27,211 nucleotides of DNA from a virus: the IMG/VR virus record IMGVR_UViG_3300030102_001215, positions 1 through 27,211 of that record. One strand, written 5' to 3'. The position numbers and the translations under genes were made by a program. The number at the start of each line of letters is the position of its first letter. The stretch's first letter is position 1. The notes beneath the pieces were generated by a model. The model saw nothing but the letters and a program-made list of their open reading frames with translations, was not told where the DNA came from and made no database searches. This document shows, in pieces, positions 998 to 23,993 of the stretch.

Positions 998-1195
998 CTA
1001 CAGTTTTTCGAATAGTATTACTATAATAGTAAACATACCTGCTACTAAAGCAGTCATTGCATAACGCATATGATTTTTAATTTCTTTAATATCGTTCTCT
1101 ATTCCTGAAATTTTTTGGTGAGTTTGTTTTTGCATAATACGACAAAGTTTTTCGTGTGATTCTATCTTCTCTAGTGCTAAATCTTTTCTAGGCAT
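998..1195 (-). CDS. Small coiled-coil protein with one C-terminal membrane segment (holin-like candidate)
   Basis: A 65-aa protein. Residues 1-43 are charged and predicted helical/coiled-coil (heptad-like run around residues 8-42). Residues 46-62 form one hydrophobic stretch (AMTALVAGMFTIIVILF) ending in a short charged tail. This layout matches small XhlA-like phage membrane proteins and some holins; by that analogy it may help lysis or anchor a virion or lysis factor in the inner membrane. It is the last gene of the operon, and its ATG overlaps the stop of the 1346-aa gene by one base (TAATG), which suggests coupled translation. No endolysin is visible in the window to support a lysis cassette, so the function is inference from topology and position. 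Confidence 0.7.
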   Translation of the reverse strand: MPRKDLALEKIESHEKLCRIMQKQTHQKISGIENDIKEIKNHMRYAMTALVAGMFTIIVILFEKL

Positions 1196-4100: not shown

Positions 4101-5235
4101 CTGCACCCATTCTTTTGGTAATTATTTTTCTAAGTTGATTTTTTAAATTAGAATCTATTGGAGCTGTTAAATCTCCTTCAAATAAAGTATTATCTAATAC
4201 TTTTAAAAATTCTTTTCTTTCTGCAACACTAGATGCATTAAAAAATTTTCTAAATTCTGGAAATACTTTATCAACTTCTGTATCTATACGAGCTACCATT
4301 TCTTCAGAAAAGTTTGTATCTCTCATTTGTCTTGCTTTTTGAGTTTGTTTAGATGCAGCAATTTCTCCAGGTTTAGTACCTCTAAATCTAAATACACTTG
4401 CTAATTTATCTAGTCCTCTTTCTATCTTTGAACTGCTGTAAGCTAATTCTTTTCCTCTTTTAGCTAATGTTTTTGCACCTGCTCCTACACCATAAACAAA
4501 TGGTGTAAGTAATATTGATTCAGATCCAAACTTTAATCTGTTTGCTAATTTTCTTGTTGCATCTTCTGCTGGATCTTCTGAAATATCTTTATCTAGTTCT
4601 GTAGGACCACCTTCAAACAAATCTCCAAACGTTCCTATTTTTTCTACATCAGCTACTAAGGTTTCTCCTGCTGCACCACCCGCAACTATTGCTGCAAATC
4701 TTTGTTTACCAGATAAATCATTTAATTGTTTTACTTTAGCTGTCCCTTTTTTAAGATTCTTACCTTTAAAATTTACATACTTACCGGCTCTTTTTGCTTT
4801 TAAGGCTCTGGCTGCCATGGTTGCTGCTTTTGCACCAGCACCACCAGGTACACCTATTTGAATTAATGCTTCTGTTAATCTTCCAACTGCTCTTTGTTCT
4901 GCAATTTCTTCAAAAGGATTTAAGTCATCAAAAAATTGTTCAACTGCTGCTGCTGTATTTGTATCTCCACCTAAGTCAATTAACTCTGCACCTAGTGATA
5001 CAACACCTTCACCAACTTTAATTGCTCCGGATGCTAGACCTGCTGCAAAAGCAGTAGCCCCACTTACTTCGTTATTATCTTCAGCTTCAGGTAATTCAAT
5101 ATCAGTTTCATCAATACCTGCTTTAACTAAGTCTTGTTTGTTTTGTTCTTGTGATTGTTTTTGTTTTTCTTTACCAGGTATAGATTTCTCTAAGACCAGT
5201 TTCCCTGTAATTGGATCTATGACTAGAGTAGCCAT
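1195..5235 (-). CDS. Very large putative internal virion / DNA-ejection protein (1346 aa)
   Basis: The largest gene of the window. Seen: a charged Gln/Lys/Glu-rich N-terminus (residues 1-60), a Gly/Ala-rich amphipathic region (about 60-110), long helical middle regions with many Lys/Arg/Glu, a hydrophobic Ala/Gly/Leu/Ile stretch near residues 925-955 that could enter a membrane, and a short conserved-looking C-terminus (LTPVENALLSEEEKQIKLRS, near residue 1320). No recognisable catalytic motif of a lytic transglycosylase or peptidase was found by eye. Size, helical nature and position after three other putative internal proteins fit the large ejection proteins of podoviruses (role of T7 gp16), which are released into the host envelope with the DNA. 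That role is inferred from position and composition. SD GGAG precedes ATG 5235; its stop overlaps the next start. Confidence 0.75.
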   Translation of the reverse strand: MATLVIDPITGKLVLEKSIPGKEKQKQSQEQNKQDLVKAGIDETDIELPEAEDNNEVSGATAFAAGLASGAIKVGEGVVSLGAELIDLGGDTNTAAAVEQFFDDLNPFEEIAEQRAVGRLTEALIQIGVPGGAGAKAATMAARALKAKRAGKYVNFKGKNLKKGTAKVKQLNDLSGKQRFAAIVAGGAAGETLVADVEKIGTFGDLFEGGPTELDKDISEDPAEDATRKLANRLKFGSESILLTPFVYGVGAGAKTLAKRGKELAYSSSKIERGLDKLASVFRFRGTKPGEIAASKQTQKARQMRDTNFSEEMVARIDTEVDKVFPEFRKFFNASSVAERKEFLKVLDNTLFEGDLTAPIDSNLKNQLRKIITKRMGAEKGNPVADNIVEVLTKTRKEFNDLLEITAAGPGAKVDLPTGVTRDLRKIMGNRVKNYIGNTFEIFEDAEAGFFSKYKPTQDSIDNAKALFMRYAAKNKNPITELEAEGMVNDIIKQVRKMDPRKDTLPTFAYQNLSKAADDATGLKTFAQTLTKDLPGGKKELQVIGKGSKVFRELFGEIEDVRHSIFEGMNRLSTIARKNQLFDEILDVDDAMKAAAKSDTPLGQRGFFHGSPLIAKRAFGPEADIVPMDDYVKEYFKDGVLINRLANTFTTREIAEGFTNVSNIQNWMRGEAEGQGALGKTFSWAWRNLLLTPKAGAQYAKTILSIPTHIRNFLSSSAFALANGTVGPGFGKAMNRAFGSVQVGGPRKPISQERYREYLELGITNTNVRLGDLRNLMKDVRFGEGNIATDSILKPMINTLGKKTSRGIKKGAKFMQDMYVAEDDIWKIIGYETQLLQRGNAYKKSGVKISDDALKKEVAAIVQDTIPNYAKVGEFVRAARMSPFGNFMSWPSEVFRTGTGIFRQIIKDMKDPLTGKINPITSKNPMKGLAMKRLIGTTLAMGAIPYGLIKGSQAMFGVSNEEADAANDFVAPWAKDSQKIYIRDPETDDLYYINWSQNNVYDTLTRPFQTVLRSIQEGVEDEEVLLKGFVQGIAEAAGQTASPFISESIYTEAFMDIWFREGRTREGRQLYNDQTPEPEKIATIMQHLSKTLMPTTQPFQRTIKGFTGAPGKGGEIYEVPKELAGIFGFRPIKVDPEKSLGFKLFEYQKAISDSRKLFTGEIDPTEMKTAQDVIERYYIANKQIFNARKKMLNTIDNARTIGISPSKTYEIFDKRNLKSEYNELTAGVFDPFFPSEGLQERFQDLAQRAGIANVFFEAEPTLRAMNAAMQSLTLFDEFDLELEDFLPDSDPEGQSALPDTPMPNQQVVQTAAIPAAGVMNQGLTPVENALLSEEEKQIKLRSRGLA

Positions 5236-6748: not shown

Positions 6749-7878
6749 TATACTCTCCCGCCTTTTTCTAATTTTTTCATCATGTCATACATACGTTGTG
6801 CACCTTTGTTGACATTACCGTCACCCATTCCTCTTACAGCGTCAGCTGTAAATACAAATTCGTTGTTTGATAACATTGCAGGAATGTCATCTGCCTTTTC
6901 TTTTACACCAACTGGAGGAATAAATCCACCTGTTTCTCGTAAATCTAGCTCAGTAATTCCAGCAGGATTTTGATTTAATGGTAAGTCCATGATGCCTGAG
7001 GCCTGAACCGCGTTTTCTTCTGGATTACCCATTGCAAAACCCATTCTACCACCATTAGCCATCTTTTCTTCATATCTTTCAAAGTCTCTAGTAACACCTT
7101 CACTAGCTTCACCAAAGAATGGCATTAACATTTTGTTATATTTTTCTTTTGTAATTTGTCCTTTTTCTAAAGCTTCATCTAAATACATTTTAAACATATA
7201 CATTGTAGTTGAAGGAGAAACACCACCTTTAGTTTCTTTTACAAACTCTAAATTTTCTTTTAATGATTTTTCTGCAGGCATTGGATTAGAAGTAGTTGTG
7301 TCTATTTGTAATCCTCTTGGAAGATCTTCCATATTATTACCTGTGTATGTAGGATCACCTGTTCCTTCATTGTATCCTATTCTACCACCATCAGCTTTAT
7401 ACTCAGCCATGTTAGCTTCTACAAATTCATTGACTTCTTGATCAGTAGCATTTTTATTTAGATTTCTATAATACTGTGAAAGATAACTTCTTAAAGCTGC
7501 AGGGTTTCTTTTTATTTCTTCTGCTTGTTCACCTGAAATACCTTCTGATGCAAATATACCAGCAAGTGCGCCTGCACCTAGTATACCTGCTTTACCTGCT
7601 AATTTATCTCCTAAAAAATTTTTAGCTCCGGATAACATAGATCCAAAAGGACTTTGCATAATATCTCCACCAATGCTTAAAGCTTTTAAAGGATTTAAAC
7701 TACCTTTACCAAAAAAACCAGCTAGTCCTCCAGGCATCAATGCATTAGCACCAAAACCTAATATAGCTGCTTTACCTATAGGTGATTTAACTATTTTTTT
7801 AACAGTCTTACCAATAGACTTTACTAGACTTCCTAGTCCGTACATTTGTCTTGGCATTTGTGATCTTGAAATTGGCAT
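6748..7878 (-). CDS. Putative virion protein with GGR[IMV] motifs (376 aa)
   Basis: Residues 10-115 form a basic then hydrophobic Gly/Ala/Leu-rich N-terminal region that could be membrane-active. Three GGR motifs occur: GGRIGY (164-169), GGRMGF (276-281) and a terminal GGRV (373-376). Residues 330-355 carry a motif of the type DDIPAMLSNNEFVFTADAVR that I recognise from many marine phage virion proteins without a known job. Function is unknown; the position (before the 267-, 235- and 1346-aa genes) suggests an internal/ejection or tail-tip protein. Unlike most neighbours it has no close Shine-Dalgarno sequence; a 39-bp AT-rich gap ahead of it contains a possible promoter with a near-leaderless start. 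Its stop overlaps the following ATG by one base. Confidence 0.65.
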   Translation of the reverse strand: MPISRSQMPRQMYGLGSLVKSIGKTVKKIVKSPIGKAAILGFGANALMPGGLAGFFGKGSLNPLKALSIGGDIMQSPFGSMLSGAKNFLGDKLAGKAGILGAGALAGIFASEGISGEQAEEIKRNPAALRSYLSQYYRNLNKNATDQEVNEFVEANMAEYKADGGRIGYNEGTGDPTYTGNNMEDLPRGLQIDTTTSNPMPAEKSLKENLEFVKETKGGVSPSTTMYMFKMYLDEALEKGQITKEKYNKMLMPFFGEASEGVTRDFERYEEKMANGGRMGFAMGNPEENAVQASGIMDLPLNQNPAGITELDLRETGGFIPPVGVKEKADDIPAMLSNNEFVFTADAVRGMGDGNVNKGAQRMYDMMKKLEKGGRV

Positions 7879-7881
7879 AAT

Positions 7882-7917
7882 TTTATTAATTATATATAAT
7901 AATCCCTTGTTTTACAA
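7882..7917 (-). promoter_or_regulatory. Candidate sigma70-like promoter before the 376-aa gene
   Basis: In the 39-bp gap ahead of ATG 7878, on the minus strand, TTGTAA (7912-7917) is followed after exactly 17 bp by a perfect TATAAT (7889-7894). Transcription would start near 7882, only a few bases before the ATG, giving a nearly leaderless message; the absence of a close ribosome-binding site fits this. The region is almost pure A/T, so a chance match is quite possible. Confidence 0.3.
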
Positions 7918-8160
7918 CTAGTCTGATCCTGCACCTAAAGGTGGCATTGCTGCTACTTTTATTTTTAAAGATCTTGTTATTTCTTCTCTGACTGTAGGAG
8001 TAGATGTATTTGCAATATCATCTTCAGCCTCTTTATCAGAGTTATATTCTTGATTAGTTCTAGTATTACGTAATACTACTTCAGTTTCACATTTTACAAC
8101 AGGCACTTTTTTGCCATTTATCATTGTGTATGCTACTTCGCCTTCTTCTATAAACGCCAT
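7918..8160 (-). CDS. Small conserved-type phage protein of unknown function (80 aa)
   Basis: An 80-aa, acidic, soluble protein with no membrane segment or signal peptide. The first 35 residues look like a small beta domain (EGEVAYTMINGKKVPVVKC region), the middle is Asn/Asp/Glu/Lys-rich, and the C-terminus (about residues 58-72) is helical and followed by a Pro/Gly tail. A good Shine-Dalgarno sequence (AAGGAG, about 5 bases upstream) supports the ATG at 8160. It sits between the 109-aa virion protein and the gap with a possible promoter. I do not recognise a named family. It is probably a minor virion or assembly protein because it lies in the structural operon. Confidence 0.65.
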   Translation of the reverse strand: MAFIEEGEVAYTMINGKKVPVVKCETEVVLRNTRTNQEYNSDKEAEDDIANTSTPTVREEITRSLKIKVAAMPPLGAGSD

Positions 8161-12970: not shown

Positions 12971-13219
12971 CTATGCGTCGGGGTCTATCGGGACCCAAAC
13001 TTGATTTACTCCTGGTGGTATTGGGTTCCATGATATCACACTTACAGGGTTATTTGCAAGGTTAATTTGTTGTCCTGTAACGTTTACAGTAGTAATTAAA
13101 TCTACTGTTGTATTACCTATTGCTATATTTAATCTATTACCGTTAGCTAATACAGTGATATTCTGTATACCGACTCCGGCAAAAGTAGTTGATGCAAAAG
13201 GTGTTGCTCCAAAAAACAT
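12971..13219 (-). CDS. Miniature paralogue of the adjacent repeat protein (82 aa)
   Basis: The start chosen is ATG 13217-13219, giving MFFGATPFASTTFAGVG, because the upstream neighbour begins MYFGATPFASAAFSDVG: the two heads align residue for residue. A longer frame to 13276 adds 19 residues that merely overlap the neighbour and look non-homologous. After the head come only two to three beta repeats (NGNRLNIAIGN and TGQQINLANN types), then a tail W-x-PIPPGVNQVWVPI matching the neighbour's W-x-x-VVPGVSQTWTRI. So head and tail are kept while about eight repeats are missing. It is coupled by TAATG to the 277-aa gene. Likely a short fibre or decoration subunit that can share the partner's docking head; the role is inferred. 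Confidence 0.7.
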   Translation of the reverse strand: MFFGATPFASTTFAGVGIQNITVLANGNRLNIAIGNTTVDLITTVNVTGQQINLANNPVSVISWNPIPPGVNQVWVPIDPDA

Positions 13220-14052
13220 TACGGTGTTTGAATCCTTGTCCAAGTTTGTGAGACGCCTGGTACTACACCGTCCCATTGTTTAATATTAATAGAAGTAGGT
13301 ACCGCTACTTCTAACTCACTACCTGTAGGTAATACAGTTGCTTTAGCTTTAATAGTTACTGTTCCTGTAGATAAGTTTTGTCTATTAGTTGTAACAATAG
13401 CTGTTGCATTAGCTTTGGTTGTAGCATTTCCAATAGCAATTTCAATGCCACTTCCTGTAGGTGTAATTGTTGCTCCTGCAACAATTGTAACATCACCTGT
13501 TTCTGCATTGATTCTTGATCCCTGAGGCAAGACTCCTGCTGCTGCAGTTGTTGTAACTGTTCCGGTATCTGCATTGATTCTTGATCCTGTTACATTGTAT
13601 TTAAATGCAAGTGTAACTGTGCCAGTAGCCTCATTGATTCTTGATCCTGTTGGAATGATTGTTGCTTTACCAACAGTTGCAACTGATCCTGTATTTAAAT
13701 TTAATCTGTTACCGGATACACCTACTACATCAATAGCTTTAGCTATTCCTGTATCAATTTCATAACCATTACCAGTAACACCAAAGTTAGCTGCTGCTGA
13801 AACAGTGACAGAACCTGTAGAGAAATTTAATCTTTGACCTGTTGGAGATACAGTTTGATTGACGTTAATTTCAACATTACCAATTGTAGTATTTAATCTA
13901 CTACCTGTAGGTAATACTAAAGCGTCTGCAATGAGTGTTGGATTGCCTGTAGACTCATTGATTCGTGAGCCAAGGACATTGACGAATGCATTGGGGTTAA
14001 AGCCTACATCTGAAAATGCAGCTGAGGCGAAAGGTGTTGCGCCAAAGTACAT
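13219..14052 (-). CDS. Tandem-repeat beta protein, probable fibre or stalk (277 aa)
   Basis: After a 17-residue head (MYFGATPFASAAFSDVG) the protein is nearly all tandem repeats of 20-23 residues with the consensus PTGSRxNxxTGxVTxxAxAxV; I count about eleven units, including clear ones with GSRINESTG, GSRLNTTIG, GQRLNFSTG, GNRLNLNTG, GSRINEATG, GSRINADTG and GSRINAETG. Such regular short beta repeats usually build a beta-solenoid or stacked fibre. The tail (residues about 256-277) ends in a W-D-G-V-VPGVSQTW motif shared with the 82-aa neighbour. The gene sits 6 bases after the last cassette C gene. It has an AAGG element 9 bases before the ATG. It belongs to no family I can name; a fibre or adhesin stalk is the likely role. 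Confidence 0.7.
   Translation of the reverse strand: MYFGATPFASAAFSDVGFNPNAFVNVLGSRINESTGNPTLIADALVLPTGSRLNTTIGNVEINVNQTVSPTGQRLNFSTGSVTVSAAANFGVTGNGYEIDTGIAKAIDVVGVSGNRLNLNTGSVATVGKATIIPTGSRINEATGTVTLAFKYNVTGSRINADTGTVTTTAAAGVLPQGSRINAETGDVTIVAGATITPTGSGIEIAIGNATTKANATAIVTTNRQNLSTGTVTIKAKATVLPTGSELEVAVPTSINIKQWDGVVPGVSQTWTRIQTP
13300..13990 (-). repeat. Coding tandem repeats of about 60-69 bp
   Basis: The DNA under the 277-aa gene shows in-frame repeats. The plus-strand word CATTGATTCTTGATCC begins at 13506, 13572 and 13632 (66 and 60 bp apart, that is 22 and 20 codons), and the second and third copies agree over 19 bp; a diverged copy lies near 13956. Near-identity at the base level in only some units points to recent local expansion, by slippage or unequal recombination. 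Confidence 0.75.
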
Positions 14053-14058
14053 GGCGGG

Positions 14059-15096
14059 CTACCTTGCCGTCGCCGGAATATTATTACTGCCAACAAGGGG
14101 TGCTTCTGCAAATGCCATGTAAATCATATTTCCACCACTTGTATTTACTCTTCCACTATTTCTTCTAATTTTAAAACCATTTGAAAGTAAATCTAAATCA
14201 TCATCTGTTGATTCAACAGCAGTATCATTTGCAAAAAGAGGATTATTATCTACATTAAAACCAGTTCTTTTGTTATCATATATAGTCCATGTATCTGTAT
14301 CATCTGTTCTTTTAATCATAATCCAAGAAGGTTTAAATCCTGTATAAACAAATGCTCCATTTGCATTTCCATTACCAGTATATTTTCCAAACTTGCTGTA
14401 ACCTTGTTTCTCTGCGAAGCAGTAGGCTATGTAATCATCTCCACTTTTATTTACTGTATTATTACTACCTACTAAAAATGTGCTTGAAGTTGGAACATTG
14501 TCAAAATTACCACTATCAGTAGCTACTGCATTAGTAGCATCAAGATATAAATATTTTGCATGACTACCTAAACTTGCATGATAAACTCCCCAATTATAAG
14601 CACCATCCATACTTTTTACTATCATCACTTTAGGAACTACACCTAAACCATGACCAATAGTAGCACCTGCATTAGCATTACCTGTATATTTAACAATACT
14701 AAATCCTGCTGCTGTGTTTGCTGATACAGTTGATGTTATATTTCCATCTGTATTAGATGAACCTGCACCATTTGCTTTCCAGTTCCAAGTGACAGGTGTT
14801 CCTGTACCACAGTCTAATTGACTGCTAGTACCATAAGTATAACCATTTGTAGCAAAAGATAAAAAATCTGAAGATGTTCCATTTCCAGTAAGTCCAGTAG
14901 AACTATTGTTACATATAAGATATTTAGTTACACCTCTAATAGCATCTAATAAACCATGGTCGCCTGTTATAGTTCTATTTTTAAACCATATAAAATCTGG
15001 TTGAAAATTTAAGTCTGAAACTGAACCTGCACCAGACGCAGAGTAAGTTCTTATATCAAAGTAATCTATAGATTTATTAATTGTTGTGTATGCCAT
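14059..15096 (-). CDS. Cassette C1: DUF7483-like fibre/adhesin protein (345 aa)
   Basis: Paralogous to C2 (17623-18669) and C3 (20795-21868): shared start MAYTTINK, shared core YIAYCFAEKQGYSKFGKYTG, shared end PATAR. Inside, one unit of about 85-100 residues occurs three times: near 30-110 (FQPDFIWFKNR ... VTWNWKANG), 150-230 (GVVPKVMIVK ... YIAYCFAEK) and 250-335 (GFKPSWIMIKR ... IYMAFAEAP). Each unit has F/G-x-P-x4-IK early, a W/Y-x-I/V-Y-D/H strand, and a Y-I-A/Y-FAE-type end, which suggests lectin-like jelly-roll folds. I place it in the DUF7483 family of marine phage tail proteins from memory. No catalytic residues are evident. It is coupled to B1 by TAATG. Host binding is inferred. Confidence 0.75.
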   Translation of the reverse strand: MAYTTINKSIDYFDIRTYSASGAGSVSDLNFQPDFIWFKNRTITGDHGLLDAIRGVTKYLICNNSSTGLTGNGTSSDFLSFATNGYTYGTSSQLDCGTGTPVTWNWKANGAGSSNTDGNITSTVSANTAAGFSIVKYTGNANAGATIGHGLGVVPKVMIVKSMDGAYNWGVYHASLGSHAKYLYLDATNAVATDSGNFDNVPTSSTFLVGSNNTVNKSGDDYIAYCFAEKQGYSKFGKYTGNGNANGAFVYTGFKPSWIMIKRTDDTDTWTIYDNKRTGFNVDNNPLFANDTAVESTDDDLDLLSNGFKIRRNSGRVNTSGGNMIYMAFAEAPLVGSNNIPATAR

Positions 15097-16463
15097 TATA
15101 AATTTAATCCTTTGGTTGATATAGCTGTGTAACCAGATGGTACATCATACTCAAAAATTCCATTATTACTAGCATTAGTTCCTGCGCTAGATACTGCTGT
15201 TGTTCCTATGTACCCATTACCAAAATTAAATTGACCTGTAGTACCATTATAATTAGAATATGCAGGTAGCATAGCAATACCACTTGTAAATGTGGCACTT
15301 ATATTAATTCCACCGGTTCCTGTTGCACCAGATGTTGGATCTCCACTTTTAAACCAAGTTCCATTTTTTCCTATGTACATAAATTTATTATCCATATCGA
15401 CAGCAAAATTAATATAATCATTTGCTGAAAATGATGTGTTTCCCATTCCTGAAGCATTCCAACCAGAAATATCTGCATTATTAAATCTTGCTCTTATTGT
15501 TCCATTATCTACATAAGCAGAATAACCCATTCCACCATAATCAATAGTATAAATACCACTCTGACTAAAATTACCATTATCAGGAACAATGCCTGGCATA
15601 TGATATGTTCCACCTACTAACTGATATTCCCAATACCATTTTCCAGAATATGCACCAATAGTACCAACACATCCTTGCCAATTAGAATTAGCATCTGCAA
15701 CTTTTGTATTACCATTAGAAAATGTTCCACTTCTTGGTGCGATACCTAAAAGATGATTAGGGTTCAGAGTACAAAAAACATTGCTTGGACAATCTTCTGT
15801 TTTTGTAAGTGTACCACCACCAACTGAAAAATTATTAGAATTAGAAGAACTGTCTGTTACTGAATTACCATCTTTTAAAATAAAATATCCCTTAGTTCCA
15901 TAAGTAACATTTGGTGCAGTATTTATTTTCCATTCTCCCGTCGTAGCATCGGTGGAACCGAATGCTGATGCGTCATAAGCAGTTCCTTGAGTGTAATGAG
16001 CATGAGACATTACACATCCTAAATACATGGCTCCATCACCTCTTTGTCCATAATGTGAAGCATAGCCTGCTCCACCATCAATACCAAGGTCAAGATTTTG
16101 AGAAGGATAACTTACTGCAGCAAGGCTAGTTTCCTGTACTCCATTAACATAAACTTTTATTCTGTTACTATCAGTTGCTTGTGTTGTATCAAATGCACAA
16201 ACTATATGATACCAAGCATTAATATCTCTAAATTTTCTATTACTTTGCCAATTTAAAGTTTGTGACGAATTAGCATATTCTTGAATTTTTAATGTATCAT
16301 CTGTGTTAAATCTAATATGAAAATAATAATTATTATTTAGTCTATGACAAAAAATAGCTCCTTCAACACCTAAGTCTGTTTTTTTTATCCATTGTGATAA
16401 AGTAAATGTTTTTCTGTTTCCTTGTGGATCTACTTCATTTCTTGTTAAATATGTATTAGCCAT
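15096..16463 (-). CDS. Cassette B1: LamG-like plus SPRY-like fibre protein (455 aa)
   Basis: Residues about 15-165 form a concanavalin A/LamG-type domain, recognised by FTLSQWIKK, the strand pair AWYHIVCAFDTT (84-95) and RIKVYVNGVQ (101-110), and MSHAHYTQGTAY. Residues about 235-445 resemble a SPRY/B30.2 domain: GKWYWEYQL (274-282), YINFAVDMDNKFMYIGKNGTW (trimmed, 350-370) and the terminal FEYDVPSGYTAISTKGLNL. Both folds bind sugars or proteins, so this is a probable receptor-binding protein at the tail or fibre. B2 (18675-20018) and B3 (21868-23202) share the same domain order and ending. Coupled by TAATG on both sides; no separate Shine-Dalgarno sequence. The actual ligand cannot be read from sequence. 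Confidence 0.75.
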   Translation of the reverse strand: MANTYLTRNEVDPQGNRKTFTLSQWIKKTDLGVEGAIFCHRLNNNYYFHIRFNTDDTLKIQEYANSSQTLNWQSNRKFRDINAWYHIVCAFDTTQATDSNRIKVYVNGVQETSLAAVSYPSQNLDLGIDGGAGYASHYGQRGDGAMYLGCVMSHAHYTQGTAYDASAFGSTDATTGEWKINTAPNVTYGTKGYFILKDGNSVTDSSSNSNNFSVGGGTLTKTEDCPSNVFCTLNPNHLLGIAPRSGTFSNGNTKVADANSNWQGCVGTIGAYSGKWYWEYQLVGGTYHMPGIVPDNGNFSQSGIYTIDYGGMGYSAYVDNGTIRARFNNADISGWNASGMGNTSFSANDYINFAVDMDNKFMYIGKNGTWFKSGDPTSGATGTGGINISATFTSGIAMLPAYSNYNGTTGQFNFGNGYIGTTAVSSAGTNASNNGIFEYDVPSGYTAISTKGLNL

Positions 16464-17620
16464 TAGTTAAATTGTCCTCCTCCAGACGCCCCGTGAGATA
16501 TTGTAATTGTAAACTGACGGTCAGCTGTTTGGCCCTGAGCGTCCGTTGCTCGTATAGTAAATGTATACGTAGTAGATGCAGTAGAGCCGGATTCAGTACC
16601 AGTAATTGCACCAGTACTTGTATTTAAACTTGCACCACCTGGAAGTGCTCCAGATTGTACTCCAAAAGTTGTAGCATTTGTTGCGGCTACTGTAAAGTTG
16701 ATAGTTCCCGCAGCGGCCACTGTTCCTAAACTGCCTGCAGCAGTTGTCCATGCAGGTGCATCTGATACAGTTAATAATGCATTAGTTGATCTTACAGCTA
16801 AACCATCATTGTTCTCTGCTCTTAAATAATAAGTACCATCTACTGATAAAGTAAATGTTGCAACAATAGTTGTTGCATTTGTAAATGCAACACTGTCTGC
16901 AGTAGTAATTGCACCTGTTGAAGAATTGATTGCATCAACTGTAGGTATTGATTGAAAGTTAGTTCCTGTAATAGTTACAGCTGTTTGTGTGTTTTCAATA
17001 ACAGTTGGACTAATAGAACCTATAGTTGGAAAAGTTACACTTGATCCAAAAGACAAAGTACCTGATCCATTAGTTTTTAATACCTGATCTGCCGTCCCAT
17101 CGGCTGTAGGTAATTTTAAAAAGAAACCTGTATTAACTGTAGGTGAAGTTGAGAAAGTATGGTTACCCATCTGACCATGATTACTACATTGGTAGTATAA
17201 AATATTTGGTGTATCGCTATCTACTGCAATCATTGTGTAAGCACCGGCTTGACCTGGTGTACCATTAGTTGTTACACCTGTTGTAAATTGTGTACTCTTA
17301 CTTGCGTTGTTGTAAAATAATAAAGGGTGCCCTGAGTTAGATGCATCTGATTGATCAAACTTATAGTGATAAGGTTTAGATGTATCATTACCTTTAATTT
17401 CAATAATAGGTGCTTCAATACCATTAATATAATAACCTTGAGAGCTACCCACACCATTATAAGGGTGATCTGCAGTTTTAGCTGCTACTGTTACAGCGTA
17501 AGTTATTGGAGTAGATGAAGATGCATAAGGACTAAGAAATCCTCCACCACCAGAATCTTTACTGATAATTAGATTACCGTTTTGGTCTTGTATCGTATCT
17601 ACTTTTAATATACTACTCAT
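16463..17620 (-). CDS. Cassette A1: Ig-like fibre protein with a cupredoxin-like insertion (385 aa)
   Basis: Residues 1-20 (MSSILKVDTIQDQNGNLIIS) are a virion-attachment type start common in marine phage fibres. Residues about 37-160 form a cupredoxin-like domain with His98 in NSGHPLLF and the loop YYQCSNHGQM giving Cys145, His148 and Met151, a C-x2-H-x2-M spacing as in amicyanin. Residues about 198-285 form an IPT/TIG-type Ig domain (ISPTVIENTQTAVTITGTNF) and about 286-376 a He_PIG/cadherin-like domain (YTFTIRATDAQGQTADRQF). It ends in QFN, as does A3. A2 and A3 lack the cupredoxin part. ATG 17620 has no Shine-Dalgarno sequence and lies 2 bases after the C2 stop, implying coupling. Copper binding is predicted from the ligand set, not shown. 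Confidence 0.75.
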   Translation of the reverse strand: MSSILKVDTIQDQNGNLIISKDSGGGGFLSPYASSSTPITYAVTVAAKTADHPYNGVGSSQGYYINGIEAPIIEIKGNDTSKPYHYKFDQSDASNSGHPLLFYNNASKSTQFTTGVTTNGTPGQAGAYTMIAVDSDTPNILYYQCSNHGQMGNHTFSTSPTVNTGFFLKLPTADGTADQVLKTNGSGTLSFGSSVTFPTIGSISPTVIENTQTAVTITGTNFQSIPTVDAINSSTGAITTADSVAFTNATTIVATFTLSVDGTYYLRAENNDGLAVRSTNALLTVSDAPAWTTAAGSLGTVAAAGTINFTVAATNATTFGVQSGALPGGASLNTSTGAITGTESGSTASTTYTFTIRATDAQGQTADRQFTITISHGASGGGQFN

Positions 17621-17622
17621 AA

Positions 17623-18669
17623 TTATCTAGCCGTTGCCGGTACTCCATCATTTCCTACGTTAGCTACTAATGGATTTTCTGCAAACGCCATATAAATGTA
17701 ATTTGACCCACTATTATTTACAGAACCACTTGTTGTTCTGACTTTCCAACCATTAGATAAAAAATCTCCTCTTGTACTTGTGCCTTCTGCGTTAGCAAGA
17801 TTAGGATTTAATTGTGCATCAATTTCATTATAAGGATCTCTTTTATTGTCAAAAATACTCCAATTATTTGTGCCATCATTTGCTCTTTTGTAAATAACCA
17901 TAGCAGGTTTGAAACCCATATAAATAAATGGTCCATCAGCATTTCCATTACCATCATAAAGTCCAAACTTACTGTAACCTTTTTTTTCTGCAAAACAGTA
18001 GGCTACTAAATTACTACCACTTTTATTTACACCATTTTCTGTATTTACTGTAAAGACACTATTAGTTGGAGATGTGTTATTCCATCTTGTAGCACTTGTA
18101 CTTGCTGCAGCTGTTGTATGTAATTGCATATATTTAGTGTTACCTAAACTTTCATGGTAAACTTCCCAGCCATTTGTTGTGCTTCTATTTTTTATTATAA
18201 TTACTTTAGGTGCAACACCTAACCCATGACCAACTGTAGCTAAACTTCCTGTACCAGTGAATGAAGATATTGAAAAACCTGCTGTTGTGTTTGCAGAAGT
18301 ATATGTTGTATTTATAGAACCATCTGTATTTGATGAACCTTGACCACCACCTGCTTTCCAATTCCATGATGCATAAGTAGAGGTATTATTATTTATATCT
18401 GTGTTATTACCTACAGTAAAACCATCTGTATCAAAAGCAGTTAAACCATTAGCTTGTGTTTGTTCTTCAGTACTTGCATTACTATAAATAGTTTTTGTTA
18501 CACCTCTAACTGCATCTGTTAACCAATTCCAATAAGTATAACTTCTTGCTTTTGTCCAAGTTAAATCTGGCTGAAAACCTACACCTGTAATGGATTGTGT
18601 TCCACCATTACCAGTATAAAGTTTAGTATTAAAGTTTAAGCTAGGTTTATTAATAGTTGCGTAGGCCAT
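17623..18669 (-). CDS. Cassette C2: DUF7483-like fibre/adhesin protein (348 aa)
   Basis: Paralogue of C1 and C3: it starts MAYATINKPSLNFNTKLYTG, keeps VAYCFAEKKGYSKFGLYDGN in the centre and ends GVPATAR. The three internal units are recognisable by FQPDLTWTKAR (N-terminal), GVAPKVIIIKNRS (middle) and GFKPAMVIYKRAN (C-terminal). The first unit closes with TYASWNWKAGG, closer to C3 than to C1. In this copy the spacer between B2 and C2 is 5 bases, so B-to-C coupling is looser than in copies 1 and 3. It probably folds like a lectin and exposes binding loops; variation between paralogues is concentrated in the polar loops between strands, as expected for a binding surface. Function is inferred from family and context. 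Confidence 0.75.
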   Translation of the reverse strand: MAYATINKPSLNFNTKLYTGNGGTQSITGVGFQPDLTWTKARSYTYWNWLTDAVRGVTKTIYSNASTEEQTQANGLTAFDTDGFTVGNNTDINNNTSTYASWNWKAGGGQGSSNTDGSINTTYTSANTTAGFSISSFTGTGSLATVGHGLGVAPKVIIIKNRSTTNGWEVYHESLGNTKYMQLHTTAAASTSATRWNNTSPTNSVFTVNTENGVNKSGSNLVAYCFAEKKGYSKFGLYDGNGNADGPFIYMGFKPAMVIYKRANDGTNNWSIFDNKRDPYNEIDAQLNPNLANAEGTSTRGDFLSNGWKVRTTSGSVNNSGSNYIYMAFAENPLVANVGNDGVPATAR

Positions 18670-18674
18670 AATTT

Positions 18675-20018
18675 TTATCCATAAGTGTTAATATTTTTTG
18701 TATTTAATCCGTAGTATCCTGATGGTACATCATATTCAAATAAACTTCCATTACCATTTGAACCTGCAGAAGTTATAGCTGTAGTACCAAAATACCCACT
18801 GCCAAAGTTTGCTTGAACTTCTCCAGCATTATATTGTTCTATCCATGGAGTGATGGAAGTACCTGCTGTCCAAGCTGCATGTGCTTGAGCACCAGAAGCA
18901 GGATTTGCTGATTCAAACCATGAACCATTTTTACCCCACCAAAGTTTTCCTGCATCAACATCTACTGCAATCATGATTATATCACCATTACCATAACCTG
19001 AAACCCAACTTGTAGATTGAGTGCCTAAAACCCATCTAGTTCCATTAGATTCAAGAGATACTGTATATGAAAAATTATGTTGTGGATTACCTGTAGCAGC
19101 CATGTGTGTAGAAATACTATCTGTAAACATAATACCTAAATCTGGCCAATCTGTAGCACTACCTTGAACACTTTTCATTTCCCAATACCATTTTCCTGCT
19201 GCTGGACAAAGAGTTCCTGTTGTAAATTGATTTGTATTTGATCCCGGGTCAAAATTAGTATTACCATCTTTAAGAGTCCAATCAACAGTACCTATTATTT
19301 TAGAAGCTAAAGGATTCCATGTAGCATAAACATTTGATGGTGTATCAAGTGCTTGTCTTCCATTACCATTAACTGTGAATGTGTTTGAGTTACCAGAACT
19401 ATCTAAACCTAAATTACCAGAGTTTTCAAATTTTAAATGAAAACCATTATTACCCCAAGTAACACCAGATGGTGATTTAAATTTCCAAATACCTGATGTA
19501 GAATCTGTTTCACCAAATACAGTTGGTGCTAATTGTTGTCCATCTACAAATGCAGCATGGCTCATGTAACCATAAAAATAATTAACTATTGATGACACAT
19601 ATCTTGCACCTATTAGTGAAGTTGTACCTTTATTCCAATATACGTCAGTATTTTGAGATGGATATGAAGCAGTATCAAATTCTGTAATTTGTTCTCCATT
19701 GACATAAATTTTAAATCTATTTGAAGCAGTTCCTTGTGTTGTATCCCAAGCAACAACTACGTGATAGTAAGCAGAGGGATCTCTAAATTTTGCAGTAGTT
19801 TGTAAATACACACTTTGAGAACCGCTGGTTGCTCCATATATTTGTAATCTATCACTTAAATATAAATAAATTTTATTATTATTATCTGTATATCCAGTAA
19901 AAATTGAATTTGTTTCACCTGCAACCATTCCTTTAATCCAAGCAGAAAATGTACCTATCTTATCGCTAGTTGACGATGATTGTGTTCTATTTAAATAACT
20001 TGTTGAATTTGTTGTCAT
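18675..20018 (-). CDS. Cassette B2: LamG-like plus SPRY-like fibre protein (447 aa)
   Basis: Same order as B1 and B3. N-terminal LamG-type domain: FSAWIKGMVAGE, then AYYHVVVAWDTTQ and RFKIYVNGEQ, then MSHAAFVDGQQLAP. C-terminal SPRY-like domain: GKWYWEMKSVQG, NGDIIMIAVDVDAGKLWWGK and FEYDVPSGYYGLNTKNIN. It starts MTTNSTSYLNRTQ rather than the MANTYLTR/MATAYLSR type of B1 and B3, and its C-terminus (NTYG) and flanking spacers also differ. It is therefore the most diverged B copy at its edges while its core is conserved. No enzymatic motif is seen. Likely a receptor-binding fibre or spike component, with the same uncertainty as its paralogues. Confidence 0.75.
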   Translation of the reverse strand: MTTNSTSYLNRTQSSSTSDKIGTFSAWIKGMVAGETNSIFTGYTDNNNKIYLYLSDRLQIYGATSGSQSVYLQTTAKFRDPSAYYHVVVAWDTTQGTASNRFKIYVNGEQITEFDTASYPSQNTDVYWNKGTTSLIGARYVSSIVNYFYGYMSHAAFVDGQQLAPTVFGETDSTSGIWKFKSPSGVTWGNNGFHLKFENSGNLGLDSSGNSNTFTVNGNGRQALDTPSNVYATWNPLASKIIGTVDWTLKDGNTNFDPGSNTNQFTTGTLCPAAGKWYWEMKSVQGSATDWPDLGIMFTDSISTHMAATGNPQHNFSYTVSLESNGTRWVLGTQSTSWVSGYGNGDIIMIAVDVDAGKLWWGKNGSWFESANPASGAQAHAAWTAGTSITPWIEQYNAGEVQANFGSGYFGTTAITSAGSNGNGSLFEYDVPSGYYGLNTKNINTYG

Positions 20019-20027
20019 AATATTATC

Positions 20028-20792
20028 CTAGTTGAAACTCATAGAGTTGTTTGCTCCTACTGTTATTTGTATAGTAAACGTTCGATCAGCAGTTTGAGCT
20101 TCAGCGTCTGTTGCTCGAACTGTAAAACTAAACAATGTGTCTGAAGTAATTCCACTTGATACAGTTCCTGTTATTGTAGCAGAACCCGATCCAGTATTCA
20201 ATGATAGACCTGTAGGTAAAGAACCTGACTGCACTGCAAAAGATGTTGCGTTAGTTGCTGTAATTGTAATTGTTGAAATAGTTACTCCAGCGTTAAATGA
20301 ACCTAATGATCCTGCTGCAGTTTGCCATGCAGGTGCGTCTGATACTGTTAATAAAGCTCCGGTTTGAACTGCGTTACCATCTGGATTCTCTACATATAGT
20401 TTGTAACTTGCATCAACTGAAATAGTAAATTTAGCTGTAATACTTGTTGAAGATGTAAATGCTACTTCATCCGCTGTAAATTGTGCACCAGTAGTTGAGT
20501 TGATTGCTGTAACTAAAGGTGTAGATACAAAATTAGTTCCTGTAATAACAACTGATGTTTGTGTATTTTCAATCGCTGAAGGACTGATACCTGATACTGT
20601 TGGTCTTGTCTCAGTTGTTAAAGTAATAGATCCACCTAATGCTACCGAAGTACCATTGATTGTAATTTGTCCTGAACCTTGTAATGCTGCGTTTGCAACA
20701 GTTTGAGAACCTGTAAAAGTATCTCCACTATCTCCTAGTGTAACAGTTGTCCCAGATCTTGGACTAATTTTATTTACTTTTACTTCACTCAT
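20028..20792 (-). CDS. Cassette A2: Ig-like (TIG plus He_PIG) fibre protein (254 aa)
   Basis: The N-terminus MSEVKVNKISPRSGTTVTLG aligns with A3 (MSTIEVDKIIPQSGTNLQVG) and is followed by an ITINGTSVALGGS spacer also present in A3. Then come a TIG/IPT-type Ig domain (ISPSAIENTQTSVVITGTNF, near residues 90-175) and a He_PIG/cadherin-like domain with FTVRATDAEAQTADRTFTIQ near the end. It lacks the cupredoxin-like insertion of A1. It ends in NSMSFN. ATG 20792 lies 2 bases after the C3 stop with no Shine-Dalgarno sequence. Ig-like domains in phage virions usually decorate fibres and give weak binding to cell-surface sugars; that role is inferred here. Confidence 0.75.
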   Translation of the reverse strand: MSEVKVNKISPRSGTTVTLGDSGDTFTGSQTVANAALQGSGQITINGTSVALGGSITLTTETRPTVSGISPSAIENTQTSVVITGTNFVSTPLVTAINSTTGAQFTADEVAFTSSTSITAKFTISVDASYKLYVENPDGNAVQTGALLTVSDAPAWQTAAGSLGSFNAGVTISTITITATNATSFAVQSGSLPTGLSLNTGSGSATITGTVSSGITSDTLFSFTVRATDAEAQTADRTFTIQITVGANNSMSFN

Positions 20793-20794
20793 AA

Positions 20795-21868
20795 TTATCT
20801 CGCCGTTGCCGGGTTATCTCCTACTAAAGGTTCTTCTGCAAATGCTATATAGATATAATCAGTAGCAGCATTATTGAAATCAGCATGACTTGTTGTTAAT
20901 TTAAATCCATTACTCAACAAATTTAATCTTACATTTGAAACTTCTGTAGAAGTAGTATTTGGATAAAGATAATCATTTAACTCATTATAACCTTCTCTTT
21001 TATTGTCAAATATATACCAATCACCAACAGCACTAGATTTTTTTAACATAATAAATGCAGGTTTAAATCCTAAATAAATAAATGGTCCATCAGCATCTCC
21101 ATTTCCTGTGTACTTTCCAACTTTTGAGTAACCTGTTTTTTCTGCAAAGGAGTAGGCTATATATTGTTGGTTATCATCATTTACAGTAGCAGAGTTTCCT
21201 AAAGTGAACACAGAAGAAGTTGGATTTGTAGTGTTAAATCCTGCGTTAAAATTAGTTCCAGCAGCAGATGAATTTAAAGAAAGAACTTTTTCTGGGTCAT
21301 TTAATGCCCCCACATGAATTATCCAATCTCCTGAATCTCCCATATTTTTTATAATTATCATTTTTGGCGTAGCACCAAGATGATGTGGAATTGTATGACC
21401 TGATGTTGAATTACCAGCATAATTAATTATTGATATACCAGCTGTAGTATTTACACGACCAGAATATGATCTTGCTGAACCTGAGCCTGTTGTTGTTCCT
21501 GAAACTCCTGTTTCAGACTTCCAGTTCCATGATGCGTAAGTATCTCCACTTGTGTTTAAGTATTCGTACTTTTCACTATTCGAACCATTTGTTGCTACAG
21601 TAAAACCACCATTTACAAAACCAGAAACATATCCATTATTTCCATGGGTTTCTTGTGCATCTGGACCATTTGAACTAAGAAGTTTTGGAGAAGATACGCC
21701 TCTAACAGCATCAAATAAAGCATGAGATTCAATATCATTTGTTCTTTTTTTAATCCATGTCCAATCTGGTTGAAAACTTATTCCTGTTTTATTTCCTGCT
21801 GAACCATTACCAGTATAAAGTAGAGTATTAAAATAATCTGTAGGTTTTTTAATTGTAGTGTAAGCCAT
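20795..21868 (-). CDS. Cassette C3: DUF7483-like fibre/adhesin protein (357 aa)
   Basis: Third paralogue of the C family. It starts MAYTTIKKPTDYFNTLLYTG, has YIAYSFAEKTGYSKVGKYTG in the middle and ends DNPATAR. Internal units: FQPDWTWIKKRTN with the HALFDAVRGV strand; GATPKMIIIKNMG; GFKPAFIMLKKSS with WYIFDNKREGYNEL. The Cys of the AYCFAEK core in C1 and C2 is Ser here, so that residue is not essential. It is slightly longer than its paralogues because of insertions in the first unit (residues about 60-130). It is coupled to B3 by TAATG. Probable lectin-like adhesin; the ligand is unknown. Confidence 0.75.
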   Translation of the reverse strand: MAYTTIKKPTDYFNTLLYTGNGSAGNKTGISFQPDWTWIKKRTNDIESHALFDAVRGVSSPKLLSSNGPDAQETHGNNGYVSGFVNGGFTVATNGSNSEKYEYLNTSGDTYASWNWKSETGVSGTTTGSGSARSYSGRVNTTAGISIINYAGNSTSGHTIPHHLGATPKMIIIKNMGDSGDWIIHVGALNDPEKVLSLNSSAAGTNFNAGFNTTNPTSSVFTLGNSATVNDDNQQYIAYSFAEKTGYSKVGKYTGNGDADGPFIYLGFKPAFIMLKKSSAVGDWYIFDNKREGYNELNDYLYPNTTSTEVSNVRLNLLSNGFKLTTSHADFNNAATDYIYIAFAEEPLVGDNPATAR

Positions 21869-23202
21869 TATAAGTTTAATCCTTTTGTTGATAGAGCAGT
21901 ATACCCTGCTGGAACGTCATATTCAAATATTCCGTTACCACTAGCATTTGCTCCTGCTGAAGTTACTGCTGTTGTTCCGAAGTAGCCATTACCGAAGTTT
22001 GCTTGATAAGTGTTTGCTGAACTACCTGCATTGTCAGCATCATTAACACCAAAGTAATAAAAACCTGTTGATGGAGTTCCTAAAGAAAATGCAGCATTTG
22101 TTCCAGATGAACCAGAAGCAGGATTACCAGAATTTATCCAACTACCATTTCTTGAAAAATAAATATAATTGTTATCTAAATCTACTGCTATTCCTATTAT
22201 ATCTCCATTATTCCAAGCTACACCTGAATAAGCAGATGTTGTATTATTATTTCTTTTTTGACCATTATTAGCCATAAAAACATATTCATCTGCTGCATTA
22301 CCAAAACCACTATTTGATGCTTGACTTCCAGAAATACCAAATCTTGCAAGTCCATTATAAATTTGTACAGCTTTTATTTCACAATAATATTTTCCACTAC
22401 TCATACCTAATGTACTCAAATTAGTTGCATAGGCAGAAGCATTAGTAACAACAGTATTATTACCATTAGAAAATGCTGCATTAGCATAAAAATTATCTAA
22501 AGAATTAAATGTATTAAAAACATTTGAAGGTGTGTCTTTAGCCTGAGTGATTGTACCATTTGTTGTAAAATTATTAGACTGACCAGATGAATCTAGGCCC
22601 ATGTTTCCGGAGTTATCCATTTTTAAAAAGAAACCATTTGTACCATATGTAACTGAAGGTGAAGGCTTTGGAATCCATACACCGTTTGAATCAGACTCTC
22701 CAAAAGTTGAAGCTGGATAAGCTGTTCCATCTGCAAGGTGGACATGGGTCATATAACCATCTAAATAGTGTGGACCTGAAGGTCTGGTTCTACCTATTTG
22801 AACAGTATGACCTACAAGATTCATAAATGCATTTACATTTTGAGAAGGATATGTTGATGTATCTAATGCAGTTTGTTGAACACCATTAATATATATTTTC
22901 ACTCTATCTGCTGTTGTTGATTGTGCAGAATCATAAGCAACAACAAGATGATAAAATCCATTAACATCTTCTTGAACGTTACTTAGTATAAGACTCATAG
23001 TAGTAGAGCCACTATCTACATTATCTATTTGTAATTTATCACTACTTCTAAATCTAATTCTAAAATAATTATTATCATTTTCATATTGATTAAATATTCC
23101 TGCATCAACACCAGTACTACATTTTTTAAACCAACAACTAAAAGTAAAAAGTTTTCTATTTCCTGCTGATGATGGTGTTCTTGATAAATATGCTGTAGCC
23201 AT
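21868..23202 (-). CDS. Cassette B3: LamG-like plus SPRY-like fibre protein (444 aa)
   Basis: Starts MATAYLSRTPSSAGNRKLFT, close to B1 (MANTYLTR ... GNRKTFT). LamG-like half: FSCWFKKCSTG, GFYHLVVAYDSAQ, RVKIYINGVQ, MTHVHLADGTAYP. SPRY-like half: GKYYCEIKAVQIYNG, NGDIIGIAVDLDNNYIYFSR and FEYDVPAGYTALSTKGLNL, the last matching B1 nearly residue for residue. It carries Cys residues in both halves (for example FSCW and KKC near the start) that B1 and B2 do not share; whether they pair is unknown. It has one-base overlaps with A3 and C3. A receptor-binding role is the natural reading of two adjacent lectin-type folds in a tail-fibre block. Confidence 0.75.
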   Translation of the reverse strand: MATAYLSRTPSSAGNRKLFTFSCWFKKCSTGVDAGIFNQYENDNNYFRIRFRSSDKLQIDNVDSGSTTMSLILSNVQEDVNGFYHLVVAYDSAQSTTADRVKIYINGVQQTALDTSTYPSQNVNAFMNLVGHTVQIGRTRPSGPHYLDGYMTHVHLADGTAYPASTFGESDSNGVWIPKPSPSVTYGTNGFFLKMDNSGNMGLDSSGQSNNFTTNGTITQAKDTPSNVFNTFNSLDNFYANAAFSNGNNTVVTNASAYATNLSTLGMSSGKYYCEIKAVQIYNGLARFGISGSQASNSGFGNAADEYVFMANNGQKRNNNTTSAYSGVAWNNGDIIGIAVDLDNNYIYFSRNGSWINSGNPASGSSGTNAAFSLGTPSTGFYYFGVNDADNAGSSANTYQANFGNGYFGTTAVTSAGANASGNGIFEYDVPAGYTALSTKGLNL

Positions 23203-23993
23203 TAGTTAAATTGTCCTGAATTAGTAATACCAACTTCTGATGTTAGAGTAAAGGCTTGATCCGCCGTTTGCCCTTCTGCATCAGTTGCTCGAACAGTAAA
23301 ACTGTATGCAGTCTCACTTGTTATAGTTGGCATTGTTCCTGATAGTACTGCTCTGTAAGTAGTACCACTAGGGTTAGTTGTAGATCCAATCGTTACACCT
23401 CCTGGTAATGCTCCTGAAACAACTGTCGTTGCAATAGTTGTAGCACTATCTGATGTAACATCTAAATTATAAGATACAGAAGCTCCTGATTCTGTATTTG
23501 CTAAACTTGTTGTAGTCCATACTGGACCATCTGAAATAACTAAATCTGTACCACTTCTAACTGCATTACCGTCTGGATTTGTTAATAAAATTCTAACGTT
23601 TTGTCCGTTTGTTAAACCTGTTGTACCTGTTGTAAAAGAAACTGATGTAGCACTTGTAAATGTAACTGACGTTGCAGTTTGAACTGCGCCATTAGTTCTT
23701 TGTAATTCTACTTTTGGTATAGATGCAAAATTAGTTCCTGTTAAAGTAACTGTTCCTCCAACGTCTGCATCAATTACAGAAGGTGAAATATTTGTAATTG
23801 TTGGTTGTGTTTCAGTTGGTATTGTAGCTGATCCACCTAGAGCAACAGCAACACCATTAATTGTAACTTGACCATTTGCTAAAGCAGAGTTTGGTATAAC
23901 ACCGTTTTGTAATGTTAAACTATCACCAGCTTCACCAACTTGTAAATTAGTTCCTGACTGTGGTATTATTTTATCTACTTCTATTGTACTCAT
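23202..23993 (-). CDS. Cassette A3: Ig-like (TIG plus He_PIG) fibre protein (263 aa)
   Basis: First A gene in transcription order. N-terminal attachment-type segment (MSTIEVDKIIPQSGTNLQVG), then VTINGVAVALGGS, a TIG/IPT-type Ig domain (ISPSVIDADVGGTVTLTGTN, near residues 88-175) and a He_PIG-like domain ending YSFTVRATDAEGQTADQAFT, then a tail NSGQFN like that of A1. No cupredoxin-like part. The start overlaps the stop of the 151-aa gene (TAATG) and the stop overlaps B3 (TAATG), so the whole block from the 151-aa gene to C3 is one coupled chain. It probably acts as a fibre base or decorated shaft that carries B and C; that assembly order is inference. Confidence 0.75.
   Translation of the reverse strand: MSTIEVDKIIPQSGTNLQVGEAGDSLTLQNGVIPNSALANGQVTINGVAVALGGSATIPTETQPTITNISPSVIDADVGGTVTLTGTNFASIPKVELQRTNGAVQTATSVTFTSATSVSFTTGTTGLTNGQNVRILLTNPDGNAVRSGTDLVISDGPVWTTTSLANTESGASVSYNLDVTSDSATTIATTVVSGALPGGVTIGSTTNPSGTTYRAVLSGTMPTITSETAYSFTVRATDAEGQTADQAFTLTSEVGITNSGQFN

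Follow-up and report, generated by a model that had tools for sequence, protein, structure and literature searches.

A predicted copper-binding cupredoxin domain as an interchangeable building block of marine phage fibers

Introduction

Why would the fiber of a marine phage carry a copper site? Cupredoxins are known mainly as cellular electron carriers and as domains of enzymes, and a search of the open literature for a cupredoxin in a phage fiber or a cyanophage virion found no report (subscription papers lay outside its scope). The question is raised by gene A1, an open reading frame (ORF) on the minus strand (16463–17620) of a 27,211-nucleotide stretch of viral DNA, here called the window, taken from a virus record of 27,800 bases, most of which it covers. 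A1 encodes a 385-residue fiber protein in which an initial annotation, made from the sequence alone, had picked out the ligands of an amicyanin-type copper site: His98 in NSGHPLLF (residues 95–102) and Cys145, His148, and Met151 in YYQCSNHGQM (residues 142–151). That annotation had the reading frame right while leaving its strand unstated, and all four residues sit where it had put them.

On balance, we think that A1 has a cupredoxin domain at residues 36–156 in which the type-1 ligand set is complete, and that this domain, predicted to bind one copper, serves as an interchangeable fiber building block. The fold itself is known; the novelty lies in the virion-fiber setting, the breadth of the family, and an all-or-none pattern of ligand conservation. 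An InterPro superfamily label or a subscription paper on the domain may exist.

Results

What kind of protein surrounds the putative site? A1 was recognized as a fiber protein from its reading frame, its He_PIG domain, and a match to phrog_30742 (“tail fiber protein”; E = 4.2e-34) over residues 33–357, i.e., most of its length. Its parts, all on the minus strand, begin with an N-terminal segment modeled at low confidence (residues 1–35, MSSILKVDTIQ..., 17516–17620; pLDDT < 50), followed by the cupredoxin domain (residues 36–156, 17153–17515) and a flexible linker (residues 157–194, LPTADGTADQVLKTNGSGTLSFG, 17039–17152) that is mostly of low confidence, with pLDDT < 50 over residues 154–192. 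Two Ig domains complete the protein. The first (residues 195–287, 16760–17038) is IPT/TIG-like, matching 3hrp in VIA (Z 13.2, 1.6 Å, 87 residues); the second (residues 288–379, 16484–16759) is He_PIG/cadherin-like, scoring 45.2 bits against a Pfam cut-off of 24 for PF05345 (He_PIG) and resembling cadherin and SraP domains in VIA (Z near 10). In a model of full-length A1 the Ig domains are good and their relative placement is poor (pTM 0.47); the geometry of the fiber is left unclaimed.

The structural genes in the window resemble those of SAR11 phages. A 1346-residue protein (1195–5235) is closest to one from Pelagibacter phage HTVC027P (40% identity over 95%), and the closest relatives of the C-terminal half of A1 belong to HTVC104P and HTVC103P. 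A1 lies in a region (14059–23993, minus strand) made up of three repeats of a fiber cassette A-B-C, each headed by an A gene; in the A1 repeat, A contributes the TIG/He_PIG Ig domains, B is a Laminin_G_3 protein (PF13385), and C is a DUF7483 protein (PF24299). Beside the cassettes, two overlapping ORFs (12971–14052, minus strand) contain the similar stretches FFGATPFAS and MYFGATPFAS, and the longer also repeats a TGSRIN-type motif, so that from its sequence the product looks like a repetitive fiber protein. An ORF at the window’s edge (330–938) runs on the plus strand, opposite to the structural genes, and its sequence suggests the C-terminal region of an SNF2-type helicase.

Do residues 36–156 fold as a cupredoxin? 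Given 41 aligned sequences, AlphaFold2 predicted a Greek key with high confidence (pLDDT 94.1, pTM 0.88). Rusticyanin was the top Foldseek match in the PDB (probability 1.00, with a modest E of 1.5e-3), and nearly all of the best 50 rows were cupredoxins, multicopper oxidases, or nitrite reductases. VIA-align matched the model to the N-terminal domain of the Hyphomicrobium nitrite reductase (Z 9.1, 2.6 Å, 100 residues) and to rusticyanin (Z 8.0). The predicted ligands are arranged as is usual in cupredoxins: His98, the first (17327–17329), stands directly before a strand; Cys145, the thiolate ligand (17186–17188) and the sole cysteine of A1, ends the penultimate strand; and His148, the second histidine (17177–17179), and Met151, the axial ligand (17168–17170), follow in the next loop, each assigned from position, model, and conservation. 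All three programs therefore point to the cupredoxin Greek key that the initial annotation had proposed to look for. With a Greek-key beta-sandwich fold and a type-1 ligand set whose cysteine ends a strand, residues 36–156 of the model belong to the cupredoxin superfamily.

Sequence searches led to copper proteins by a less direct route. The A1 domain as a single query found no match in the PDB, and NCBIfam returned nothing useful for A1. When a 19-sequence family profile was run against all PDB sequences, its three best matches (E 0.0017–0.0057) were to a copper nitrite reductase, a pseudoazurin, and a multicopper oxidase; for the nitrite reductase and the pseudoazurin, the alignment covers the Cys-His-Met loop. 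This profile also picked out a small Prochlorococcus protein with an apparent signal peptide (E = 1.3e-11), and this secreted protein scores above the cut-off for PF00127 (Copper-bind) and matches plastocyanin structures. Judged by sequence, the phage family is thus tied to plastocyanin in two steps, through secreted cellular relatives.

Existing annotation misses the domain because it falls short of the available signatures. Neither PF00127 nor PF13473 (Cupredoxin_1) matches A1 at the Pfam gathering cut-off, and no Pfam cupredoxin model recognizes the A1 domain at its own. One family member comes close (19.5 against 21.2), and two cellular relatives, P0002 and P0003, pass. The At5g54830-like domain (PF25489) matches A1 weakly, at 17.7 bits against a cut-off of 27. 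PROSITE PS00196, which has Pro or Gly between the Cys and the His (as printed in PMC517927), fits none of the 217 copies among the matches listed.

Is the site that of an amicyanin? Amicyanin binds copper through H53, C92, H95, and M98, and its C-x2-H-x2-M spacing is a proven type-1 copper loop (PMC517927). A1 has this spacing (CSNHGQM), as do 203 of the 217 copies among the matches listed. The amicyanin signature [AP]-G-[SAT]-[FVY]-D-[YF]-[FHIY]-C-[RT]-x-H-P occurs in none of those 217, and no amicyanin appears among the best 50 VIA rows, a result that carries little weight. The earlier label “amicyanin-type” therefore survives for the loop spacing and fails for the family signature and PS00196; we reject A1 as an amicyanin, only loop length being shared. 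A second precedent for the loop is the distal type-1 center T1CuC of TsNirK (6hbe), formed by His390, Cys428, His431, and Met434 and called amicyanin-like by its authors (PMC6400189).

These precedents bear on which metal would be bound. Because the same loop binds copper in amicyanin and TsNirK, and because the axial Met is kept, the metal at the predicted A1 site is quite likely copper by analogy. Zinc or iron, held instead as a structural ion, is a very doubtful substitute: His2-Cys-Met sites can take zinc in heterologous expression, as azurin does, yet an invariant Met ligand would be unusual for a structural zinc or iron site, and the known proteins with a C-x2-H-x2-M loop are copper proteins.

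If the four residues form a metal site, how are they conserved? The scan pattern Y[QY]C[SVT]xHxxMG contains the Cys, His, and Met itself, making statistics circular for those columns, which were left out. A second pattern, Y[RK]FDQ[SA]D[SNA], is keyed on a stretch that lies upstream of every ligand and ends before His98. All four ligands are kept in 49 of the 49 nonredundant copies that it found among the matches listed, one of them an intact site with a loop two residues longer. Of the 92 copies whose selection did not depend on the Cys loop (90% identity, among the matches listed), 86 have the four ligands and 6 lack three or four of them; copies short of only one or two do not occur. At the median nonligand column, 38% of this listed set deviate from the consensus. 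Clustering the listed matches at 50% leaves the pattern in place (19/24 intact, 5/24 without three or four ligands, and 0/24 between). Homologues thus do not freely replace these residues, the behavior on which the initial annotation had staked its metal site. A real metal site would be expected to show such all-or-none conservation at the sequence level, since the residues would serve one bound ion and would be lost jointly. Among the matches listed, nonligand cysteines are rare in the domain (3 in 131 copies), and a proline directly follows His98 in 121 of 134. The C-x2-H-x2-M motif arises in ~9 per 100,000 shuffles of the A1 sequence; other ORFs of the fetched loci contain it twice in 448,318 residues, and never with a His 35–60 residues upstream.

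The ligand-poor copies are found at residues 981 and 1707 of L029, at residue 896 of L039, and in L040, all multidomain phage proteins, and in L217 and L218, which are Flavobacteriaceae surface proteins. An apparent lone loss of His98 at residue 1221 of L029 was a MAFFT alignment artefact that disappeared with hmmalign. As the six seem to keep the domain, copper would not be strictly needed for the fold. Could the A1 domain then be an idle spacer, a cupredoxin-like beta-sandwich whose inherited ligands are now unused? The copies of L029, L039, L217, and L218 that have lost the ligands within multidomain proteins and the weak match to the At5g54830-like Pfam domain fit such a reading, but decay would be expected to proceed one residue at a time, and the absence of copies lacking one or two ligands (0/92 among the matches listed) makes it highly improbable.

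Is the domain shared by the paralogues of A1? A2 (20028–20792, minus strand) and A3 (23202–23993, minus strand) carry the same two C-terminal Ig domains, with 63% and 45% identity to A1 over them, respectively, and the A3 counterpart of the IPT/TIG-like domain scores above the cut-off for TIG (PF01833). Their alignment with A1 also reveals a common N-terminal outline, MSxI-xVDxI. Where A1 has the cupredoxin domain, A2 and A3 have only a short spacer of the form ITINGxxVALGGS, and neither contains a cysteine. A search of the window with the domain profile (E ≤ 10) matched A1 alone, so that among the three cassette repeats only the A1 copy has the module; both this search and the alignment uphold the earlier observation that the paralogues lack the domain and carry another spacer. 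The initial annotation had left undecided whether one copy gained the module or two lost it. A single gain looks likelier than two losses, because HTVC103P and HTVC104P, which have the A-type C-terminal half, lack a domain match. Close relatives with several A genes (G001, G003, G004, G012, and G013) likewise have the domain in one copy, as read from alignment ranges. In another genome, G009 (record L021, near 6966–8122), the A1 homologue is broken over several frames, reflecting either a pseudogene or sequencing errors; the other copies are intact.

How far does the domain extend beyond this one phage? The domain matched 92 of 50,697 phage records at E ≤ 1, the weakest matches being only 30 residues long, and all 92 are named as Synechococcus, Prochlorococcus, Pelagibacter, Methylophilales, cyanophage, or seawater phages. 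Scans of IMG/VR confirmed at least 491 stretches with the loop-keyed pattern and at least 304 with the upstream-keyed one. As far as sequence can tell, hundreds of marine viruses share the domain, with its ligands all kept or nearly all lost. The initial annotation had pointed to similar segments in marine cyanophage virion proteins, and they are indeed there, in a family that proves broader: it includes podophages, myophages, and some bacterial surface proteins, and the hosts of the phages include SAR11, OM43, Prochlorococcus, and Synechococcus. Among the carriers are fibers of podophages and of myophages as well as proteins whose annotation is baseplate wedge gp7 or gp9. In two cyanomyophages the domain lies inside such annotated baseplate proteins, P-HM2 gp7 (L039, baseplate wedge initiator) and ACG-2014d gp9 (L041, baseplate wedge tail fiber connector). 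Two IMG/VR loci (L028 and L029) have ORFs of >2,000 residues with six domain copies per protein. Some of these copies are intact and others have lost the ligand set, so that nature provides a series in which copper dependence could be probed.

The flanks of the domain change from protein to protein. L010–L012 are alike in their N-terminal half as well as in the cupredoxin domain and end in unrelated C termini, and L047 and L056 join the cupredoxin domain and an A-type C-terminal part to a different N terminus. Because the flanking parts differ in this way, the domain can be read from these sequences as an exchangeable fiber module with swapped neighbors.

Cellular homologues comprise very long Bacteroidetes proteins and small secreted proteins. 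Matches occurred in 5 of 149 genomes of a Bacteroidetes class, in which the domain is not common. Two single-cell genomes, of a Prochlorococcus (L244:196–600) and a Bacteroidetes (L245:214–609), each encode a small protein that has cupredoxin ligands and an apparent signal peptide; the Prochlorococcus one scores above the PF00127 cut-off and has a plastocyanin-like loop. Judging from their sequences, such proteins are a possible cellular source of the module. By predicted fold, a “beta-sandwich protein” of Pithovirus LCPAC302 (BFVD A0A481Z6J5) also matches the domain model (TM 0.73), the match taking in almost the whole length, and “beta-sandwich proteins” of the giant viruses LCMAC201/202 (marseilleviruses) match it as well.

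Discussion

What would a copper site do in a fiber? One answer is that it serves binding to the host surface, either through a receptor that docks copper or cupredoxins, with copper as bait, or through a glycan or protein recognized by the domain’s surface. The domain does sit in a fiber protein with Ig domains, next to LamG and DUF7483 fiber genes, and copper as bait would be a copper version of the ferrojan-horse idea, in which siderophore receptors are proposed to be exploited by iron-loaded tails (Bonnain et al. 2016, cited in PMC5797145). Nevertheless, the loop is kept over phages of SAR11, OM43, Prochlorococcus, and Synechococcus, which would be unexpected for a receptor-specific tip, and the presence of the domain in the gp7 and gp9 baseplate wedge proteins of cyanophages speaks against a purely receptor-specific role. 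The metal, moreover, would be buried, as it is in the cupredoxin fold generally. We regard host binding as unlikely.

A redox-active site, exchanging electrons at the host surface or sensing redox state to trigger a change of the fiber during adsorption, seems to us quite improbable. Conservation of the ligands by itself fits a structural as well as a redox role. The site retains the full set of four type-1 ligands, axial Met included, as electron-transfer cupredoxins do, and His98-Pro resembles the HP motif of the copper oxidase aligned to it in the profile search. Against this, the domain in A1 is adjoined by neither a redox partner nor a second copper nor an enzyme domain, the same site recurs in phages of very different hosts, and the proline between Cys and His that typifies electron-transfer cupredoxins is absent.

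We tentatively favor a third role, in which copper would organize and stabilize the domain rather than transfer electrons or bind a receptor; the reasoning is that the site is the same across phages of unrelated hosts and also in baseplate proteins, with both flanks swapped. The computed fold of A1 residues 36–156, with its complete type-1 ligand set, would bind a single copper ion, which would hold the Cys-His-Met loop against the strand of His98 and make the domain stiffer. So stiffened, the domain would be exposed to sea water, flanked by the virion-end segment on one side and by the two Ig domains on the other. Free copper is scarce in the cytoplasm, in which virion proteins are synthesized, and the copper would therefore have to be loaded later, probably from sea water after release of the virion. 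We consider it probable that virions carry the copper. The bolder proposition, that marine phage virions are copper proteins, with one or more working type-1 centers in their fibers and baseplates that serve redox sensing at the host surface or exploitation of host copper handling during adsorption, appears rather unlikely.

If abundant marine phages do carry a modular cupredoxin, its site intact, in the apparatus by which they adhere, a classic metal site would have been put to a new use. Virions may then be one of the forms in which copper is bound in the ocean, and the site would offer a spectroscopic handle on fiber function. The claim is testable with a domain of ~125 residues, which should turn blue or green.

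How does the A1 domain compare with known systems? The tail fiber-like proteins of P-SSM2 and P-TIM68, phrog_30742, and Bellamy gp121 have the same domain with its ligands intact, and predicted structures in BFVD match the A1 domain model closely (TM 0.91 for P-SSM2 and 0.86 for P-TIM68); the P-SSM2, P-TIM68, and Bellamy proteins differ in being longer, with other flanking modules, and their annotations do not mention a cupredoxin. Rusticyanin and the N-terminal domain of the Hyphomicrobium nitrite reductase have the closest folds, yet share only ~10–12% identity in the aligned part and, unlike the role that we favor for A1, act in electron transfer. The distal domain of TsNirK, the top PDB profile match, has the same C-x2-H-x2-M loop as A1 but belongs to a nitrite reductase and has further copper centers close by, which the phage protein lacks. 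Amicyanin works with methylamine dehydrogenase, for which no gene was recognized among the window genes scanned. The plastocyanin/azurin family (PF00127) shares the fold and the order of a His followed by a Cys-His-Met loop, although the Cys loop of A1 is without the Pro and two residues shorter than that of plastocyanin. PF00127 proteins are free electron carriers, whereas the A1 domain is built into a phage fiber.
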